Assembly: GCF_026151205.1 (NCBI RefSeq)
Contig: NC_087072.1
Location: 21,606,103-21,666,102 of the forward strand
Source of the DNA: Bolinopsis microptera
Taxonomy: Eukaryota; Ctenophora; Tentaculata; Lobata; Bolinopsidae
DNA length: 60,000 nt
Direction: 5' to 3'
The notes beneath the pieces are model-generated. The model was given only the letters and a program-made list of their open reading frames with translations. It had not been told where the DNA came from and did not search any database. Below are positions 4,371-24,858 of the stretch, in pieces; the first letter of the stretch is position 1, and each line of letters opens with the position of its first letter. Position numbers and translations under genes: made by a program.

Positions 4371-5936
4371 CATATTACACATATAGTAAGTGGATAAGTT
4401 TCTCTCAGTCGCTATAACGTTCATTATGAACGTAATAACTCAGTCACTCAGTCACTCAGACACTCAGTCACTCAGGTAGTTGATAAATGACATATTGATA
4501 TATAACCCTCAAAGTCAACTGACAATGACAACAGCTATAACATTGACGCACAAATGCGATTCAATTGTACACATTCGCTGTTTATAACATTAAACCATTA
4601 GATCGCAGTGATTCAAAATCGAACTCCATGTAAAAATTGGTTTATCGACATTGCTTTATAAGAAGCTGATCCCATTTAAGTTCAATCATTTATGATTCTC
4701 TGAAATCTTCTGAAGAACTACTATATACTGGCTAAATTCCCAGAGTTCTATCACCATTCACCAGCATAGTCTTAGACTGAAATATGTTATTTGAATCAAA
4801 CTAATATTGGTCAAAAACTCAGCACTTATCCTTTGGAAACTTTCTTTCAAGTCTCAACCTGGGCTCACATCCCTGACCAAAGATAAACGTGTTTAAATGT
4901 CCAACATTCACTAATTCAGTACAAGTTTATACATACAATTAGTCTAACCCGTGCCTACGGCCGGAATTTCACTATCGCAGTTGAAATGCAAAAGTATAAA
5001 CCTGCCTATTATATTTGAAAACACGCATTACATTGTCGTATGACACACATAAATCGAGAATCTCCGAGATAAATTTGTCGATTAAAAGGATAACGTTAAT
5101 GACAGCTCCCCAACACAAAGCCCCAGCCCCCCTCCCCAGGTGAGGTAGATAAAGACGGCACATCATCATTCATCACAACATGAACAATTGAACATGGCTA
5201 TTTCAGTACGAATTAACAGAAGACGATCGAATCAGCGACCAGGTGAGCCTTAACGGATGTGTTAACAATATGCCGTGAAAATATTATAATATGTTACGTT
5301 ATTTCCTCTCATGCGTACATGTTTATTGTTCATGAATATCCATTTATAAGGCCGCTTCTCTCCTGCGGGGCTTTACAAGTTCACCTCCCGATTTCTTCAT
5401 AATAGGAGAACCTTTAAGGTTAGTTTTACAAACTATTTAGCTAAATAGAGTTCTAGGCTATACGGTACATTTTAGTTAAATGGTCCTTGGCTAGTCCAGT
5501 TATCTAGCATATTACCTAATGAGGAATAACTCGTACAAAGTAGCCTTATCTCTCGCTTATTTGTTAAGAAAGATTATGTTGAGCTCAATTCTCAGAAAAG
5601 CCTTATCTCTCGCTTTTTTTGTTGAGTGGGAGCTCAAAAAATTAACATGTCTACCATGCCAGATGCCCAGATGGACAGCTTATTCTTCACTGGCATAATG
5701 AGTTTAGAAAAGTTTAGTTTACAAACATCTAAACTTTCATTGGATAACACCGTGCCTGATGGCGCATTATAATCCGTTCAAACATTTTTATTCTTTGGGA
5801 GCATTTTGTTCTATTTCCTACAGTGACGTACCAGGCCTTTTTCTTCTAGATTTGTTTCTTAAAGGTCAAATCATACCATTTTCAATAATTAAGATTGAAC
5901 GTTATATGATAAAAAACAAGCCCCTGACAGGATAGA
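4371..5936. other. Gene-free stretch upstream of the GPCR
   Basis: Holds a CACTCAGT microsatellite at 4438-4475 and a short direct duplication (GCCTTATCTCTCGCTT) at about 5543 and 5601. An upstream 5' exon of the GPCR could lie here, but none was identified. Confidence 0.45.
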
Positions 5937-6977
5937 ATGTTAATGATCCCTTTAACCACAGTCTCCATCCTCATCAGCCTTGTTGGGATCATCGCAAACT
6001 GTCTATCTCTCTCTTACTTCATCAGACGACAGAATAAAGGGCTCGCAAGTAGACTGCTGATGTTACTTAATACATGTGATTTAGTTGTGTGTGTGGTTTA
6101 TGTACCCAGAGCAATCCTGGAGAGATTGTATACATACGACAGTATTGGAATGGGTTTTATTGTCACCAATATCATATATTCCATATGTTTTGATTGCACA
6201 GGATTTTCAACGTGTCTCGTTAGTATCACCAGAACGATTAAAGTGTATCGACCTTTCTATTCTTTAAAAGGAGTTTGGATTGCAGGAAGTTTTGTTCTCT
6301 ATTCCATTTGCTCAACAATAAGGGAAATTTCTTACTACTACTATTGGTTTAAAGAAAATACTAATTTTGATACAAACTATCATCTAATAATCTTTTCCTC
6401 GATGACAACTTGCAACGTCAGCGCTGTTTTCATCTCAACAGTCATTACGGCTTATTGGTTGTTAAGGAAAACCCAGATTAAAGGCAACATCTCGAAGAGT
6501 AATCACCATGCAACCATTACTATACTAATCCTATCAACAGTATTCTGCCTTCTTAATGTCACAACCATCGTCTATCTAGCGCTTCTGTTATTCGGAGATT
6601 TCAGGGCAATTAATGAAAATGGAACAATTTCTACATCAAAAGAATTGTTCTATCAGATAGCATGGAATGTTATGATTTGTCTCAATTCAACAGTTAATCC
6701 CATTATATACCTGACAAGAAAAGAGGAGATGAGACGACATGTATTAGAATTCTGGAGGTCTCTGGTTGATAGATTCAGAGCTAAATCACAGGGAACTGGA
6801 TTACAACAAATGAGACTAAATGAAACGGGGCGACAGGAATTTAGGCCACAAGAATATGGACCACACACTAGACCACTAGAAAATGATTTAGAGTTCACCA
6901 CTAGAAGCCCAAACGACAAAGAATCCCGTGTAGGAGTAATCCCTGGCATAACTCCAGATATTTCTACTAGTGTGTGA
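5937..6977 (+). CDS. Orphan class A-like G-protein-coupled receptor, intronless
   Basis: A 346-residue ORF with seven hydrophobic segments. Rhodopsin-family marks: asparagine in TM1 (N21 in GIIANCLS), aspartate in TM2 (D48 in NTCDLVV), a TRT triplet (98-100) at the DRY position, and an NPIIY motif (254-258) in TM7, then a basic helix-8-like stretch and a polar tail. The CWxP motif of TM6 is not evident, so it is a divergent receptor whose ligand cannot be assigned. The extracellular N-terminus is only about five residues before TM1, so a short upstream exon may be missing. It runs opposite to SLU7. If SLU7 continues left of the window, this receptor is nested in its intron. Confidence 0.85.
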   Translation: MLMIPLTTVSILISLVGIIANCLSLSYFIRRQNKGLASRLLMLLNTCDLVVCVVYVPRAILERLYTYDSIGMGFIVTNIIYSICFDCTGFSTCLVSITRTIKVYRPFYSLKGVWIAGSFVLYSICSTIREISYYYYWFKENTNFDTNYHLIIFSSMTTCNVSAVFISTVITAYWLLRKTQIKGNISKSNHHATITILILSTVFCLLNVTTIVYLALLLFGDFRAINENGTISTSKELFYQIAWNVMICLNSTVNPIIYLTRKEEMRRHVLEFWRSLVDRFRAKSQGTGLQQMRLNETGRQEFRPQEYGPHTRPLENDLEFTTRSPNDKESRVGVIPGITPDISTSV

Positions 6978-16022: not shown

Positions 16023-17226
16023 GTTGGCAACAAGTGCTTCATAAATTATTATCAGACTGTTGATCTAAATCAGATCTGTAAAACTATTGTCTGAGAATGA
16101 TCAATGCAATGGTATTTGTGAGAGTCTGGATGTTCTAAGGCAAGCTGGACCTGGATGGCCCACAAGAGGATAGCATGTGATGCTCCACCTGCTCTTAGTT
16201 GTGGCAAGCATCCATGAAGTGCAGAAGATAAAAGAGGTAAAGTGGCAAAGGATATGAATCTTGATGTTTCAAGCAAGCAGTGGCATAACGACCGCCCCCG
16301 CTACCCCTTGGGGGCGGCACCTTAGGGGGGGGGCGGCATTTTCCTGGATTGTAGGTCTGATTTCACGGAAAAAGCGCCTTATTGGTGTACTGCTCTGTCG
16401 GATTTAGCGTTCGTTATATGTGGAAAAATATTTGGGGTACCATTTTTGCTTCAGGGGGCGCCAAAAAAGTACCCAACGTTTTTTTAGGGACACAAAATTT
16501 TAATAGAAAAAGTCAGTTCTCACCAAAATGAAGCACAAAGTTCCTCCAAAATGTCTTTTGTGAGCTCTATCTAGCTGTCATGAGGGAAAACAGTCAGTAA
16601 GGGCAACTGCAGACCCACTAGGAGGCCATTGAACCAGAAACTCTGCCAGATTTCACTACATGATTACATGCCATTTTGCATGATCATCTGATCTATTATT
16701 GCCTGTTCTTGTGTGATCAAGTTGGACTATCCCAGCTTCTCAAGTCCCAGTGCCTTCTTTTCTAGTGTTGTCTGTCATACTGTCTTCTGTCATACTGCTG
16801 TCTTTACTAGTGACCTCGTAATATCCTAAATAGTCATGCTATCCTTATAAAGCAATGAAAGGCCTTAGTTTGGTCAAATCAAACAGAACATATGCTATCA
16901 GACTTTCAACTGACTAAGGTAGGGTTAAAACAGTTTCGACGCTAGCAACAATCCCCTTTTACATAGTTCCACTAAAATGATAATTTAAGATTAAATATGT
17001 ATAGTGATAGGTAAATAAAGTCAAAAATGTAATAAAACGGTAGGGATAAAGTATACTGAAACTAAGAAAATAAACGTCATAAAACGAAATGACCCAAATT
17101 AAACTGAAAGATCTCCCGCGTAATTTTAAAACTCCATTTTGCGCCGCTGCAAAGTTATTTAAAAACTAAATTCAACACGTGCGACAAATATTTCGCAACA
17201 TTAGAAAAAGATGCCAACAGGTCAAG

Positions 17227-18153
17227 CTATGGCATTAATATATTTCCACACCCAATACCAAACTTATTCTTTAGCCCATGCCTCTTTACCACTGATAAGT
17301 ATATTTTACTAAGACGATCCCGTCTAAAACCCAACTCAATTAAATCATCAGTAAACTTCAAAACCCTATCAGAAAAAGCAACAACGTTATTACAGATCCT
17401 AGAATATCTCACAACCTGTGAACAGTACGTGCCTTATAATACACTACTAGCTTGATTACTCACCAAAGGTTGAAACTTGACCACTTTAAAACCAAACTTA
17501 TCCCTTTTATCATAAACTCTACAAGAAAACTTCCCCTCTCTATTTATCGAAATATCAAGATCTAATACATTGGCGGCACTATCTACTTCATTTTCCTTAT
17601 TAAGAGTAAGTGAGTCTGGATATATTAACTTAAAATATTCCTCTAAGTAACCATCAGAGTTAAGGGTAGTAATATCATCTATAAGTCTAAATGTATTATA
17701 TAACTTCTTTACAATATAGTATCTACTTTTATACGTACTATCTAGGAAACTGTTCTCAAAATACCAAAGTGTTAAGTTAGCAATATATGGACCAGGGTTG
17801 ATTCCAATAGGTACACCGATATGTTGCCGATATAAGATCTCTCCTACTTTAAAGTAACAATTATCCAGTAGAAACTCAACACATTTAATCAACTTAACTT
17901 CATCAAAAGCCACAGTCCCATCTCTAAAGCTATTAACCCAAGCAGACCCTTTATCGTAAACAGCTATAAACTTCTTCTTACTATTCCTAAAGGCTAATTT
18001 AACAGTAAACTTGAGAGCATCCTTGATATCTTTATGGGCTAAATTCGTGTATAAAGTAGAAAAGTCAAAAGTTTGGATGTTTCTCGCTAAGCTAGTATCA
18101 TTAATTTTATCTAAAGCTTCTAGGTATGTTCTAGGTACCTCGTTTTTTCAGTA
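17227..18153 (-). pseudogene. Reverse transcriptase fragment, second Penelope-like family
   Basis: Reading down the minus strand from about 18153: VPRTYLEALDKIN, then RT block A (TFDFSTLYTNLAHKD), block B (GVPIGINPGPYIANLTLWYF), catalytic block C (FRLIDDITTLN) and a conserved thumb (SQVVRYSRICNN, GFRRDRLSKIY). One in-frame TAA at 17434-17436 interrupts the frame just before GTYCSQVVRYSRIC, where family members usually read through. The N-terminus is missing, and an in-frame TGA lies just upstream of 18153. The blocks differ from the two GIY-YIG PLE copies in this window, so this is a separate lineage. No endonuclease domain is visible downstream. It abuts CFAP90 exon 1 in opposite orientation. 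Confidence 0.85.
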
Positions 18154-18180
18154 TAACTTATAGTGTTACAGATATAAACG

Positions 18181-21100
18181 ATGGCACTCTCAGAAGGTGG
18201 CAGCATGTCGACATATGGCAAGACCATTTACAACCCCCACGAGGAGAGCTCTCAGTGGATTGAGCAGATCAAAGTTAGTGAGATAGTGTCTCTGTTATAT
18301 AAAATTTGTGGTGTTTACAGTTAATGTTTGATTCTGAATGTTTTGTGATATTATTACATGTGATGTGTGTATTCATGTGATCAAGTCAGGGCTTAAATAT
18401 TCGTGTTGTGAACTTTTATAATTCAAAGGCTAGTTAAACACTAGACTATGGAATCTAGACACCATGTACATTTAATTTGTCCAAAAATGTCATAGCATTA
18501 ATACTATTTTTAAGGTGTTGAAGAAATTAGGTTTGAAAATATGGTTTTGAAGTTCAAAATGATAAAGTGATAAAAACAGATTATACTATCTTATCTGTTT
18601 AAAGCTATTTTGACGTGTTAATTGTTAACTAGACATAAACCGTTATCAGAGAGAGGAGAAGCAGAGAAAGAATCACAACGTTGTAAACGGAGACGACACA
18701 GTGGTTGCTACCTACTTCAAAGGAAAGAAACCTGATCCTGGTCCAGATCCTGCCAAGAACATCAGCTACTACAACAATTACAAAGAGGTACTTCCATCAA
18801 ATATTAATGTTTATACTGGTTAATATATTATATCGTTTGGAAACTATTAAAGCTAATTGCACCATTTTTACATATTAATTAATTCATGGGGGATGAGCGA
18901 CTTAATGACTCTGGATAAATTTAGGATAGTTTGTCAGGAATTGTTTCTGGACAACAATATGTAGAATGATAATTGTTCATTTTAGTGCAATGAAGTGTGA
19001 TTTTTATCTTGAATTCTCAAATAGATCTTAAGGCTGAGCGTGAGTTTGAGACGAATTTAGCTTTCATTTTAGACTTCACGTCTCCCGAAATAAAACTGCG
19101 AACAAAGTGAAACAAGGAACTAAGTAAACTGTAAAACCAAATTTTCGTCACGCATTGGACCTTGATAAAGTCCAATGCGTGACGAAAATTTGGTTTTACA
19201 GTTTACTTAGTTCCTTGTTTCACTTTGTTCGCAGTTTTATTTCGGGAGACGTGAAGTCTAAAATGAAAGCTAAATTCATCTTGAATTCTAACATTATCCC
19301 AAATATTCAGAGACCCACAGAGACACTATACGAGAGAACGTTTAAAGTAGATCTCGACTACGAACCTAAACTTCACCGGGATGATAGACATCACAAAGTC
19401 GGCCTTGATCTCCACTCTGAGGTTTGACACTTTTCTGTGAAGCTCTTTATTTTCCATAATTTGGACTTATAATTTCGTAAATCCTCAATACTGTAGCTTC
19501 TTTCAATAACTAGTACTTGTTAATGACGAGTCTGTGCGCTAGGACAAGGGGAAGGGTGTGTCGACTATTCGATCTAACAGCGTGTATGGGGCAAGAATTC
19601 ACGCCCCAATTGACAAGATGGGCGTGGCCACCACTCATGCTAAACGCCAGATCGTTGCTGAGGAGTTCTTTGATCACGGCCCGGAAGTCAGGCAAAGATA
19701 ACTCTATTTGTACGTCAGATTCATAATCTCATTCGGTGAAGCATTGTGCCAAAGTGAGCACTTTGAAGGCTTATAAGTTATGGGGGCAGTGTTATCCCAG
19801 CTCTCAAAACTTTTAACTATATATGGCCGTCTTTGTCGCCCATAAAACCTCCCGTTTTTAAGTGAATAATCATCTATTGCATGATTGGTCTTCACATGGA
19901 TTTCACAGTTCTTTGTTTGTTAAAGTAACTGTAATGCTTCAATTAATCAATGCCTCAATTAAATCAAATATAAAATGTCGTGTAAACCTAAAAAGTTACA
20001 AATCGTTCAATCATCTACATCCCTCTTCGACCTTTATTCGACAATCACGATCTTTTATCTGTCTTTATTCGTAAGTATGACGTGCAGCACATTCTCTGAA
20101 TTCTCAACATTCTATGATCACAGGTCACATCTTCTGACATACAGCTACAGTTTCATCACATGTTAAGTTAGTTTTGTCATGTACACAGATACTGGAACAA
20201 ATGTCATCATGCACAGTCTACACCACAAAAATAACTTGTTGTAAATGTAAAACTGAGACAGTCCAGTACTACAGGACGTTGGAAAGTCGGTGTTTGTTCG
20301 GAGCTCAAGTGTGTACGGAAAAAGAACTCCGTTTGATCCGGCCCTCAAGGAACACGTAAGAGTGCAGGTTACGAAGCAATTCTTCAGGGGAAACGACAAC
20401 AGATAGCGCTGTGAACTAACTAATGTTTTATCTCTTTACAGCTATAAACTTATGTTTAACGTATGCTTTCGATCTTTTGTGGACCGAAACATGATCCATG
20501 AGTTTTGTTTAACATTTACGATTATCAAATTGTAGAGATCTTGGTAAAAGAAAATTTTCTTCAGTAACTTAAATCTGGGATAATTTGGCCAAAATTTGAC
20601 AAGAACACTGTTCTTTATTTGCATGAATACAATTATTTATTATCTGTGGGTGATTTCTGTTGTTTGTTTATAAGTTATTGTAAAATTAATCACTCAGTCA
20701 TGAAAAGATTAGCTCTTCTTTTTATTAAACTGTATAATGCACTAGTATATAGTGCTGTAGCGGAGGGAAAACATTATTGTTTTTACTTAAAACCAATTAA
20801 TTCCATAGCGATTGATAACAAATAGCCTTTATTTATAAAATATAGATCATGTGATGGGTCCAGATATGAACCCATCATTATGAACCCATTGCATCATTAT
20901 AAACACTAAATGCAGTTTATGGAATAAGCAACAGAAAAATAAATACATGTTGCATAACTCTGCATAAGGCATATTAGTGCAAAACTAGGTTTGTCCATTT
21001 GATTCTACAAAATGTCTTACAATCACAGCAAGAAGACGTCTAAAACAATATCTCACAAATTTCCCAGATAATATCCCCATTCCACCAGATATCAAACAAA

Positions 21101-21226
21101 ACAGTGACGACCACTACGACTGCTGAGTACGGTAAGAGAAAACCACTTGAGGGCTCATCTCGACAGTTTGCTCGCATCAACATCATCAATAAGGAGTTCT
21201 TCAGGAGCTCCGGAAATGTGATTTAG
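18181..21226 (+). CDS. CFAP90: Cilia- and flagella-associated protein 90 (C5orf49-like) with three alternative terminal exons
   Basis: CFAP90 is a small protein of axonemal microtubules. Exons: 18181-18273 (ATG, MALSEGGSMSTYGKTIYNPH), 18650-18787 (ATYFKGKKPDPGPDPAKNIS, YYNNYKE), 19311-19421 (ETLYERTFKVDLDYEPKLHR, DDRHHK), then one of three last exons: 19543-19701, 20275-20406 or 21089-21226. Every internal junction is phase 0. The signature LDY(D/E)xKLHRDDR(E/R)H is the family's hallmark. The predicted products are 166, 157 and 159 residues (human about 147). Exon 1 is less certain because its sequence is not conserved. A TTTTTTCAG acceptor lies about 35 nt before the ATG, consistent with a 5'UTR intron or spliced-leader site. 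The gene sits between an RT fragment and a PLE pseudogene. Confidence 0.9.
19053..19277. repeat. Perfect 108-bp inverted repeat in CFAP90 intron 2
   Basis: 19053-19160 is, base for base, the reverse complement of 19170-19277, with a 9-nt spacer. The right arm ends 33 nt before CFAP90 exon 3. A transcript would fold into a 108-bp perfect stem. It is either a real recent palindrome or a fold-back assembly artefact. Confidence 0.95.
19543..19701 (+). CDS. CFAP90: CFAP90 alternative terminal exon a
   Basis: Acceptor TGCGCTAG, phase 0, 52 codons plus TAA. Encodes DKGKGVSTIRSNSVYGARIH, then APIDKMG and AEEFFDHG. The SNSVYGxRI core corresponds to the family's SSVYGKRI motif. Immediately follows the exon 3 donor by 121 bp. 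Confidence 0.85.
   Translation, partial: DKGKGVSTIRSNSVYGARIHAPIDKMGVATTHAKRQIVAEEFFDHGPEVRQR
20275..20406 (+). CDS. CFAP90: CFAP90 alternative terminal exon b
   Basis: Acceptor AGTACTACAG, phase 0, 43 codons plus TAG. Encodes DVGKSVFVRSSSVYGKRTPF and ends TKQFFRGNDNR. It shares SSSVYGKR and the QFF(R) element with the other two terminal exons but differs at most other positions, so the duplication is old. Confidence 0.82.
   Translation, partial: DVGKSVFVRSSSVYGKRTPFDPALKEHVRVQVTKQFFRGNDNR
21089..21226 (+). CDS. CFAP90: CFAP90 alternative terminal exon c
   Basis: Acceptor ATTCCACCAG, phase 0, 45 codons plus TAG. Encodes a threonine run (TVTTTTTAEYGKRKPLEG), then FARINIINKEFFRSSGNVI. It keeps YGKR, an aromatic and arginine, and EFFR, in the spacing seen in CFAP90. 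A plus-strand AATAAA occurs downstream near 21815. Confidence 0.82.
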   Translation: MSNKTVTTTTTAEYGKRKPLEGSSRQFARINIINKEFFRSSGNVI

Positions 21227-22301
21227 GGAAACTGGGTGGATTAGATCTCGAAGCATTGATGTGTTTAATGGACCTTTTTTTGCCATTTAACAATTAATTA
21301 AAGTTGAATCAAATTGTGTACTTTTAAATGTTATATTTCGAATGTTTTGAAAAATTTATGATTTGTAGAATATGACATCCTTGTTGATCTGGCCCCATGA
21401 ATCTGTCAGATATAGACGACAGCTCATCTAGATCTGCCCCTATCTTTAGTCAGCAATTACTCTATTTCATGATTGAAACACTTTTTCATTTAATGCATGC
21501 CAATGTTATCGTTTAAACTATGAGGGATTTCGTTTATTACATAGATTTATTTTCCAAACCACATTCGGTTGTTGATCATATTTATACCATGTAGAAAAAC
21601 ATCATTGATTTTTTAAATGCCTCTATCATTTATTCCGGCATCAATATTTAAAAACTATACAACATATTTGATCTGAAACCAACCGCTATATCTCGGTATC
21701 TTCAACAAAATAATTTGATCTAACGTCGAAATATTGCTTTAAATGTTTCATGTAAGCGGTACCAGACCAATACAAGTAGAATATTTCATCCCCAGACAGT
21801 TTCTGTCACACACAATAAATACCGTAAACGTAACGCGCGAAGCGTTTTGCAGTATGAAATGTTTCACTGCAAGGTCAAAATTTGCGTAGCCATGGTAACA
21901 AAGCCGCGCATACCTCACGCTTCTTATATTTTTGTTCAATTGAACATTGATGCATATCTCACGTTTCTTCTTTATGATGCATATCATGCATATCTTAAAA
22001 TAAAGAATGATAACTTGAATCAGCTATTTTTATATTTTCAACAAGCAACATCCTGCACGTAAATGGACTTCCCATTAAGAGTTTGAATCCAGAGGAATTT
22101 TTTCTCCCTTTGAATCAATCAAGCTAGATAATTTGTTGTAAATACTGAGATCAAACTATCAATTTACAGGCTATCGTCAAACATGTTGCAAGGCGTCATA
22201 TTCAGTGACATAAGCCTACAAATTGTAAAAAGTTAGTAAACCCCAAAATTCCTTTACACTTTAAAAATCTTAACACTCTTAAAACGGTTATAAAATTAAA
22301 A
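21227..22301. other. CFAP90 3' flank
   Basis: Likely 3'UTR of the longest CFAP90 isoform, then AT-rich spacer. It contains an X-box-like motif, GTAGCCATGGTAAC (21886-21899). No other gene seen. Confidence 0.45.
21886..21899. promoter_or_regulatory. X-box-like (RFX) motif
   Basis: GTAGCCATGGTAAC fits the RFX consensus GTNRCC-N(0-3)-RGYAAC. RFX factors drive ciliary genes in animals, but this site lies downstream of CFAP90, so its function is unproven. Confidence 0.35.
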
Positions 22302-22422
22302 TTAAGATGTTAGGAGTAAGGGAAGGCCAAAAGGATTTATAGTGTTTATTCCCAAAGGTTTTAAAGTCTTGAGTAGTTGAATACATTTATGTTCACGGAC
22401 TTCCAAAGTTTTAGGACTAGAA
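22302..22422 (-). pseudogene. C-terminal tail of the interrupted PLE (GIY-YIG end)
   Basis: Reads DSSPKTLEVREHKCIQ then LLKTLKPLGINTINPFGLP before a stop. It is homologous to the tail of the PLE at 1.0-1.25 kb (SSPSSLDVKEHRYIQ ... LKSLRPSGMNSTNPF). Repeat units at 22423-23241 separate it from the rest of the element. Confidence 0.75.
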
Positions 22423-22739
22423 TCTCTACTATAATTCAAAGAATTATTTCTGATGTAGAATGTATGTATGTACGACCGCCCACGTGCAAATTTGATGAAA
22501 AATAGGAATTTAGGTAACAACCAAAAGGTTCCATAGCAACGGTGTTTTAATGCACACATGCACGTGCAAAGATTGTTTTAACGTCATTTTGATCGGTTTT
22601 GTGGTAATTACGTTGTGTTTAAAGTGTTTTATATTTAAATCGGCTGTATCTTCGGTTGGGATGGATATTTTTTGATGCGATTAAAATTTTCTTTCAAAGA
22701 ATACTACTAGCTTCGTCCCTGTTACCACGGGCTTTCTAG
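22423..22739 (+). mobile_element. Helitron-like repeat, copy B
   Basis: Starts TCTCTACTATAATTC directly after an A and ends TTTCTAG before T. First of three head-to-tail copies. Its X-box-like motif is degraded. Confidence 0.6.
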
Positions 22740-23241: not shown

Positions 23242-24306
23242 CACTGTCCATCTCTTGCGAACTTTCCTAATGACCAGGGTCTGTAACTGAATATTTTCTT
23301 CCTAGGCGTGGCAGCTGTTGAGGTCTATTGGGATGTTTCAACAGTGTCACTTTCACTGAAACTCCTTGTTCTTGAGAGGTGTTCTTCATACTTCTTAGTC
23401 ACAGACACCAGATCATCATCACTACCATAAGTAGATATGACCATGATTGGAAGGTGTAAAGATGTCTGGTCATCAGGAGCCTGAACTTTGCGTAACAGTG
23501 ATCTTGCTGAATTGAGAACCTGATTACTAATTTTCTCAACCATTTTTCTAGGGTAACACGCGGCAAGGAAGGCTTTTTTGAGGTTGGTGAAGGTGTTCTT
23601 TGAGGCGTTCTTGGTAGTTGATGATCCCTCTGAGTCTAAGGCATTGAGAGTACACGATACCGGAATAGATATGGTTTGGGTGGGAGATTTTAAAGTGTAT
23701 GTATGAACGAGAGTCCGTTTTCTTTATGAACAAATCCGTTTGGAGGGAGCCTAAGGAATCGAAGGTGAACATTATGTCAAGGAAAGATACGTATTTACCA
23801 CGATCTTCTATTTGGTACTCATCAATGATTAGGCCATGGGAGAGGAGTGCTTTGTTAACATCTGCAATCCAAATTTTGAACTCATCTGTAGTTCTCTCAA
23901 ACAAACCTGCTCCGTCGTCAATGTAACGCTTGGCTGATACGATCTTCTTCATGAGCTCTGGGTCGCTATAAACACATTTGTTCATTAGGTAGTAGACAGC
24001 TATGTTTGCGATTTGGACATATAATAGTGATCCACCCGTAGGGATATCAATGAGCTGTATGAACCAATTTTGATCCAACACCCCAACAGAGGATCGGAGG
24101 TTCAATTCCACCAGTTGTGTGAGCCATTGGCAGAAGTCTTCAGACCAATCTTTTCTGCATGATGACATAGCGGACCTTAAGGCCTCTATGACGAGTCGAG
24201 GGGTGGTGTTAACTGTTAAAGAGTCATAGAGGGCCTTAAAGTCGTAGGTAAAAAGAGTTTGAATCCACTCACTAATCATCAGGGAAACTTTAGCCTGGGG
24301 TAACAC
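23242..24306 (-). pseudogene. Penelope-like element, RT core (interrupted copy)
   Basis: The minus-strand frame from about 24306 down to 23548 encodes RT block A (FTYDFKALYDSL), block B (IPTGGSLLYVQIANIAVYYL), block C (SAKRYIDDGAGLF) and the thumb shared with the PLE at the window start (DSRSYIHF, HPNHIYSGIVYSQCLRLRGI). A frame change near 23545 leads into MVEKISNQVLNSARSLL and VISTYGSDDDLV. A stop follows after SDTVETSQ. The cysteine cluster and GIY-YIG core are missing; the tail reappears at 22302-22422. The 5' side ends at the MITE-like unit at 24307. Confidence 0.85.
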
Positions 24307-24858
24307 GACTTCTGTCCGACAGCGAATTTTTATCTTGTCCGAATCAGTGATCAGGTGAATGAAAAAACTGACTGTTGTCCGAAATTGTCCGAATACAACA
24401 AATTTCCAATTAGAGATATGATCTAAAATGTTACTTGCTACATTTGCATTTGATACCGAATAATTGGACATAGTGTAATTGATTGAAGTTATTGTCATAT
24501 AAAATGTTGGGGATCGAAGTTAGGATTTGTGGTTAATGTCCCGATCCAGGCGTTTTCTTAGTAGGGTGCAACATTCCGAATTTCGATATGCAGCCATCTG
24601 CCCATGTTGATAGGTTGCCGGGGTGGCAGTATCCAGATAGCCCGACACGTGTTCGCGAACAGTTGTAACACGTGTCGGGCTATCTGGATACTGCTGGAGG
24701 GCTTTCAGGTGTCTCCAGGTTCGGGAGTCTCCGGTAGGATCACATCAGCATCAGGACAGTGGACAAAATTGGAAATTCAGACAACAATCGCCGATAAGGA
24801 CTCTTGTCCGAAAACCCTAATTTCTGATTCGGACAAGAGTTGCTGTCGGTCAAAAGTC
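24307..24858. mobile_element. MITE-like element with about 35-40 bp imperfect terminal inverted repeats
   Basis: The left end (24307-24346: GACTTCTGTCCGACAGC ... CTTGTCCGAATCAG) is the imperfect complement of the right end (24824-24858: CTGATTCGGACAAG ... GCTGTCGG ... AAAGTC). Further inner segments also pair (around TTTCCAATT and TTGTCCGAA). It contributes spurious codons to the open frame of the adjacent RT and marks the RT's 5' boundary. It contains the perfect hairpin at 24627-24693. No transposase. Confidence 0.6.
24627..24693. repeat. Perfect 27-bp inverted repeat
   Basis: 24627-24653 pairs exactly with 24667-24693 around a 13-nt loop. The arms contain CCCGACACGTGTT and lie inside the MITE-like unit. 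Confidence 0.95.

Follow-up and report, generated by a model that had tools for sequence, protein, structure and literature searches.

Does the CFAP90 gene in this stretch of ctenophore DNA carry three exchangeable ends, each encoding its own version of the protein's C-terminal module? The window, by which we mean the whole 60,000-base stretch that was analyzed (C1:21606103-21666102, GC 38.2%, in a genome of 264.65 Mb and 232 contigs), contains this gene on the plus strand at 18181-21226, where three exons are followed by three candidate last exons. Our preferred reading, to which we assign a probability of roughly three in four, is that this is one CFAP90 gene with three homologous last exons that are likely joined singly to exon 3, giving three C-terminal modules. 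The parts of the gene are:

18181..18273, plus strand, coding exon 1 (MALSEGG...IEQIK; donor GTTAGT); translation, with residues identical in database protein P0001.
18650..18787, plus strand, coding exon 2 (REEKQRK...YNNYKE; donor GTACTT); boundary set by the exact P0001 match.
19311..19421, plus strand, constant exon 3 (RPTETLYERTF...KLHRDDRHHKVGLDLHSE); phase 0, weak donor GAG/GTTTGA.
19543..19701, plus strand, alternative last exon 4a (52 aa); SNSVYG module with an MGVA insertion and a DHGPEVRQR tail, identical in P0001.
20275..20406, plus strand, candidate alternative last exon 4b (43 aa); SSSVYG module in an intact frame, 48.0 bits, Pfam E 2.6e-5.
21089..21226, plus strand, alternative last exon 4c (45 aa); canonical-like module EYGKRKP...EFFRSSGNVI, of a type seen in relatives P0002 and P0006.

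The coding start at 18181 and the start of exon 2 at 18650 are both fixed by P0001, which equals isoform a letter for letter. A single contig of 965 bases is given for the P0001 cluster, and as the genomic distance from the start to the stop of 4a is 1,521 bases, that contig is spliced. The predicted proteins have 166 (isoform a), 157 (isoform b) and 159 (isoform c) residues. Immediately 5' of the start codon, at 18145-18171, a T-rich stretch and an AG have the appearance of an acceptor, for which reason a 5' non-coding exon of CFAP90 may lie upstream, past a transposon-like frame.

A preliminary description of the window had taken the gene for CFAP90 and proposed comparing the three peptides with that family by HMM, and both the identity and the comparison held up. 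Against the Pfam CFAP90 family (PF15074, curated cut-off 32.6 bits), the full isoforms scored 68.6 (a, as P0001), 74 (b) and 78 bits (c), all over the cut-off. Each last exon was also matched alone, with E-values of 0.0034 for a, 2.6e-5 for b and 1.4e-6 for c, all at scores below the cut-off. The nearest solved relatives of every isoform were CFAP90 chains, with 8snb, 7ung, 8iyj and 8otz as the first four (isoform a was tested with six wrong residues at the start of exon 2), and the best of them, 8snb, matched isoform b at 82.5 and isoform c at 86.8 bits. When single ends were compared with solved structures, 4a retrieved no CFAP90, 4b retrieved CFAP90 at E-values of 0.025 to 1, and 4c did so at 0.00054 and 0.049.

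The separate ends were distinguished more sharply by a profile of the module itself, built from the C-terminal modules of 14 of 23 database relatives with no window sequence included. Left out of it were P0001 (the window's own protein), P0002 (incomplete end), P0020 (end the same as that of P0019) and the six fragments P0007, P0010, P0011, P0012, P0016 and P0022, none of which shows a spliced end. Among the 1,938 stop-to-stop frames of at least 20 residues in the window, this profile scored 4a at 72.9, 4c at 53.2 and 4b at 48.0 bits, with the next frame at 4.4 bits and a best value of 10.5 bits from 20 windows shuffled in two-base blocks. The three segments are therefore variants of the CFAP90 module, as had been proposed, and the same profile found no fourth module in those frames. 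A profile of nine non-a-type modules, run on the window frames, gave 17.1 (a), 32.4 (b) and 55.0 bits (c), the next frame reaching 5.3.

The layout around these modules is also as first described. Exon 3 ends at 19421 in phase 0 (LDLHSE/GTTTGA), and 4a, 4b and 4c are each preceded by an AG, open in phase 0, and closed by their own stops at 19701, 20406 and 21226, with 573 bases before 4b and 682 before 4c. They are homologous exons in tandem that share a phase, have their own stops and follow a single upstream donor. That donor scored 3.1 with a generic matrix, compared with 5.3 for exon 1 and 5.1 for exon 2. Within the gene, identical residues number 20/43 between a and b, 14/45 between a and c, and 13/43 between b and c, in line with the earlier judgment that the exons are too diverged to be recent copies. 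No repeats of 16 bases or longer are shared among the three exons, and this is consistent with their age. Poly-A-like words, which are expected by chance in AT-rich DNA, follow each exon: ATTAAA at 19958 past 4a (the sole such signal between the stop of 4a and 4b), ATTAAA at 20724 and AATAAA at 20938 past 4b, and ATTAAA at 21297 past 4c.

To what extent the three ends are used can be read in part from database proteins. A search with isoform c gave 7 matches, and a search with an alignment of the isoforms and relatives gave 23, including those 7. End a is present in five of the 23 (P0001, P0003, P0004, P0005 and P0008) and end c in two, P0002 and P0006, which join it to constant exons of the type in the window gene; P0002 stops after 19 residues of its c-type module. 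The remaining 16 consist of six fragments and ten canonical single-ended proteins, the named ones being from sea anemone, rotifers and flukes. End b occurs in none of the 23 matches, and a search restricted to that end returned no candidate either. In the window species itself only end a was seen in database proteins, end c being seen only in relatives. Thus, more than one last exon is joined to the same upstream exon across species (a in P0001 and four relatives, c in two relatives), and not within one. The original claim that all three exons are used stands for types a and c, which have exact or close database proteins (c in relatives only); for b it has no protein, and the evidence consists of frame, module score and tree. 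We infer use of end c in the window species, some use of end b, and regulation of the choice among the ends.

Comparison with the relatives revealed that ends a and c are kept as distinct sequences. End a is identical to that of P0003 at 44/52 residues, P0004 at 34/51, P0005 at 31/49 and P0008 at 34/49, the constant exons of the same proteins giving 95/114, 88/114, 83/114 and 68/106. For end c the values are 16/19 in P0002 and 32/45 in P0006, with 92/114 and 42/65 in the constant exons. The ends evolve about as slowly as the constant part, and somewhat faster in comparison with P0004 and P0005. The MGVA insertion of end a reads MGRA in P0008.

A tree was made of 16 modules, comprising those of 12 of the 23 database proteins, the three window modules and one from a second CFAP90 gene on contig C11. 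Its five end-a modules form one clade (99/96), 4c groups with P0006 (98/98) adjoining Nematostella (87/90), and the nearest module to the a clade is its sister 4b, with support of 92/92, which is under the strict mark; overall, two of the 13 inner branches reach that mark and seven are open. If the tree is right, the position of 4b would make it older than the split of the window species from the P0008 species (64% identical in the constant part), and it would have stayed intact since.

End b is the point at which the preferred reading can most readily be challenged. It may be that only ends a and c are in use, 4b being either a relic that fell silent recently or an exon that is seldom used and has no function; this reading we consider unlikely, though it deserves to be taken seriously. 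Such a relic would explain why end b is in no database protein when a is in five and c in two, although the sample is small, at seven end-bearing proteins. The exon itself does not look decayed, as its frame is open, its acceptor is in the right phase and its module scores 48.0 bits; the tree, moreover, dates its origin before the P0008 split, with the 92/92 support that is below the strict mark. We simulated drift with point changes only, from starting scores of 72.9 (a), 48.6 (b) and 54.5 bits (c). Of 1000 copies taken to 0.2 changes per site, those still open with at least 45 bits numbered 42 for a and 1 each for b and c, the 45-bit mark being strict for b. The 4b module would already be ruined by 0.1-0.2 neutral changes per site. 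The simulation argues against 4b having been neglected for long, but does not argue against a recent loss of use.

Codon positions were also compared. Differences at third versus first and second positions were 26/43 versus 36/86 for a and b (p=0.06), 32/43 versus 43/86 for b and c (p=0.009), and 28/45 versus 49/90 for a and c. We give this bias small importance, as it would arise even if only a and c were constrained. The earlier suggestion that the intactness of all three exons reflects selection is supported for a and c by their conservation in relatives; for 4b the evidence comes from its sequence, namely an intact frame, the 48.0-bit score and the 92/92 branch.

A search of the genome with PF15074 found four places: exon 3 and 4c of the window, and two on C11. 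This search missed 4a and 4b, and so would overlook other diverged ends too. The C11 places belong to a second CFAP90 gene (L006, C11:6219500-6229400, minus strand, at about 5841-4398), which scores 77 bits with PF15074 and 59.9 bits with 8snb, and for which one last exon was found in 9.9 kb. By reading, its introns lie at other positions, inside the codon after YD and after PVPT, and the window and C11 genes are therefore not recent copies of one another. A genome search with isoform b returned, among the best candidates, window exons 1-3 and 4b, and C11 weakly; a DNA search with 19400-19700 returned only itself, likewise among the best candidates. No other copy of exons 1-3 than the distant C11 gene was found among the best candidates of the genome searches.

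The presence of this second gene lends something to the view that splicing picks among the ends by chance, with no consequence for what the protein does. We think this improbable, since ends a and c are each 63-85% identical to their counterparts in relatives compared with 31% between a and c within the gene, and since all five end-a proteins retain the DHGPEVR tail (as DHGPKVR in P0008). Even less probable is that 4b serves also, or only, as an inner cassette, in which a GTAAGA at 20356 would join 27 of its residues in frame to 4c and produce tandem modules. The site, CAC/GTAAGA, is in phase 0 and scored 6.4 with the generic matrix, compared with 3.1 for the exon 3 donor. However, the same bases encode V-R where other modules have H-V-R or H-A-R, a donor-like site with the higher score of 8.9 by that matrix occurs inside 4c too, and the end-b-restricted search, in which a protein of that length would have been accepted, gave no match. 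That 4b and 4c are last exons of separate genes or independent transcripts is hardly credible: the 573 and 682 bases before them leave room for other starts, but P0002 and P0006 link the c-type end to this gene's type of constant exons, and apart from the distant C11 gene no further copy of exons 1-3 was among the best candidates of the genome searches.

We return to the reading of one gene with three exchangeable ends. Exon 3, with its weak donor, would be joined to 4a, as in P0001, and to a c-type end, as in relatives. Human CFAP90 sits inside the B-tubule of the ciliary doublet, close to the inner junction and together with CFAP45, CFAP52 and ENKUR (PMC9564825), and the constant part of the ctenophore protein would presumably anchor it there as well. 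The exchanged end would be a module of the SNYG type. According to PMC10973386, proteins of the SNYG group, which includes the CFAP90 module, contact two tubulins through a motif, [ST]-N-X-X-[ILVY]-G, and the C-terminal helix that follows. As the motif and helix contact both tubulins, a swap of ends likely alters the hold on tubulin or on neighboring inner proteins. The strict consensus is fitted by end a (SNSVYG), while SSSVYG in b and TTAEYG in c are without the N; the solved CFAP90 chains are also without it (TSSVYG, MSSVYG, SSSVYG and SSSAYG). Structure models were made from 16-row alignments. That of the end-c relative P0006 has a helix at 93-105 (mean pLDDT 58.8) and that of P0001, with end a, has no helix in the end (mean pLDDT 53.1); at these values the models are too poor to serve as fold evidence on the module. 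The DHGPEVR-type tail of end a is the best candidate for a new contact.

With regard to history, end c would be the animal-wide end, a first duplicate of it would have given rise to the a/b line, and a second duplication would have separated a and b at a time when the window species and the P0008 species still shared one lineage. As to how one end might be chosen over another, six comparisons of intron 3 and the regions before 4b, before 4c and after 4c revealed no competing RNA pairing, each being matched by 13 to 42 of 60 shuffles, and Rfam had no match in 17000-22500.

Why would an animal keep three ends? One tentative answer, which we regard as rather doubtful in this specific form, is that comb-plate cilia, sensory or balancer cilia and sperm each receive a tail of their own, which would let the wall of the B-tubule vary among cilium types without separate genes. 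Some components, CTENO64 and CTENO189 among them, are particular to ctenophore comb plates (PMC11184263), and this makes tuning by cilium type in ctenophores plausible as a general notion. Elsewhere, variants of one axoneme part are supplied to cilium types by paralogs, for example CIMIP2A/CIMIP2B, RSPH6A/RSPH4A and CCDC63/ODAD1 (PMC11779644). Those paralogs are separate genes, whereas here the variants are last exons of one gene, with a second gene on C11, and the cilium-type role of the ends is predicted. In that source, the reason for cilium types carrying different versions of a few axoneme parts is described as unclear despite the structures. The CFAP90 gene would offer a clean natural swap in this respect, pairing three ends with one unchanging body, and its owner likely swims by means of compound cilia.

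The gene has its constant part and C-terminal module in common with CFAP90 elsewhere (C5orf49; PF15074; solved in 8snb, 7ung, 8otz and 8iyj). It differs in that each solved chain has a single end, as do the proteins matched in Nematostella, rotifers and flukes (a comparison of proteins), whereas three ends follow exon 3 here, and in that the insertion and DHGPEVR-type tail of end a were not seen in any of those chains or proteins. Tandem alternative terminal exons have been described for Drosophila pip and PGRP-LC, where, as in the window gene, they are homologous and in tandem; in those genes they are chosen one at a time, and the source treats pip under UTR duplications and PGRP-LC under competing RNA structures (PMC9013439). 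The window exons differ in encoding a predicted tubulin-binding module, and in that no competing structure was found. The novelty claimed at the outset is thereby narrowed: the architecture is known from pip and PGRP-LC, but no tandem alternative last exons for a microtubule inner protein were found in the literature searched, which was without most subscription journals. Within that coverage, the arrangement was absent from the publications listed on CFAP90/C5orf49, on isoforms and alternative last exons of inner proteins, on ctenophore cilia, on ctenophores together with inner proteins, and on tandem exon duplication.

During the analysis we noted several other features of the window and genome. 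By eye, P0016, a genomic read-through, resembles exon 3 of another species running on into a 4a that is out of frame. Intron 2 contains a foldback element at 19042-19288, with arms of 122 bases that are 96% complementary and 3 bases apart, which ends 22 bases before exon 3. Two minus-strand frames, of 237 codons at 17437-18147 and 323 codons at 23551-24519, resemble by eye the reverse transcriptase of Penelope-like elements, and neither had a Pfam match; the first is separated from the start codon of CFAP90 by 33 bases. A plus-strand frame of 349 codons at 5928-6974 has hydrophobic stretches and the appearance, by eye, of a seven-helix receptor, with no Pfam match.

Crystal structures exist for two ctenophore receptors, ML032222a and PbiGluR3 (PMC12226733). 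In the genome searched here, ionotropic glutamate receptors were matched at 32 places. These lie on C1-C9 and C12, with clusters on C3, C6, C8 and C12, and several fall within open frames longer than 900 codons. Two of them were compared with solved structures to place the animal. For one receptor (L012), kainate receptors were nearest, and no ctenophore chain was among the best 60 matches listed. For another (L017), the first half of the binding domain matched ML032222a at 118 bits and 4zdm, which we take to be PbiGluR3, at 82, with the next at 55; by this evidence the animal is very likely a ctenophore. Over its whole length, L017 matched full-length kainate receptors at 195 bits and ML032222a, a chain of 256 residues, at 181.
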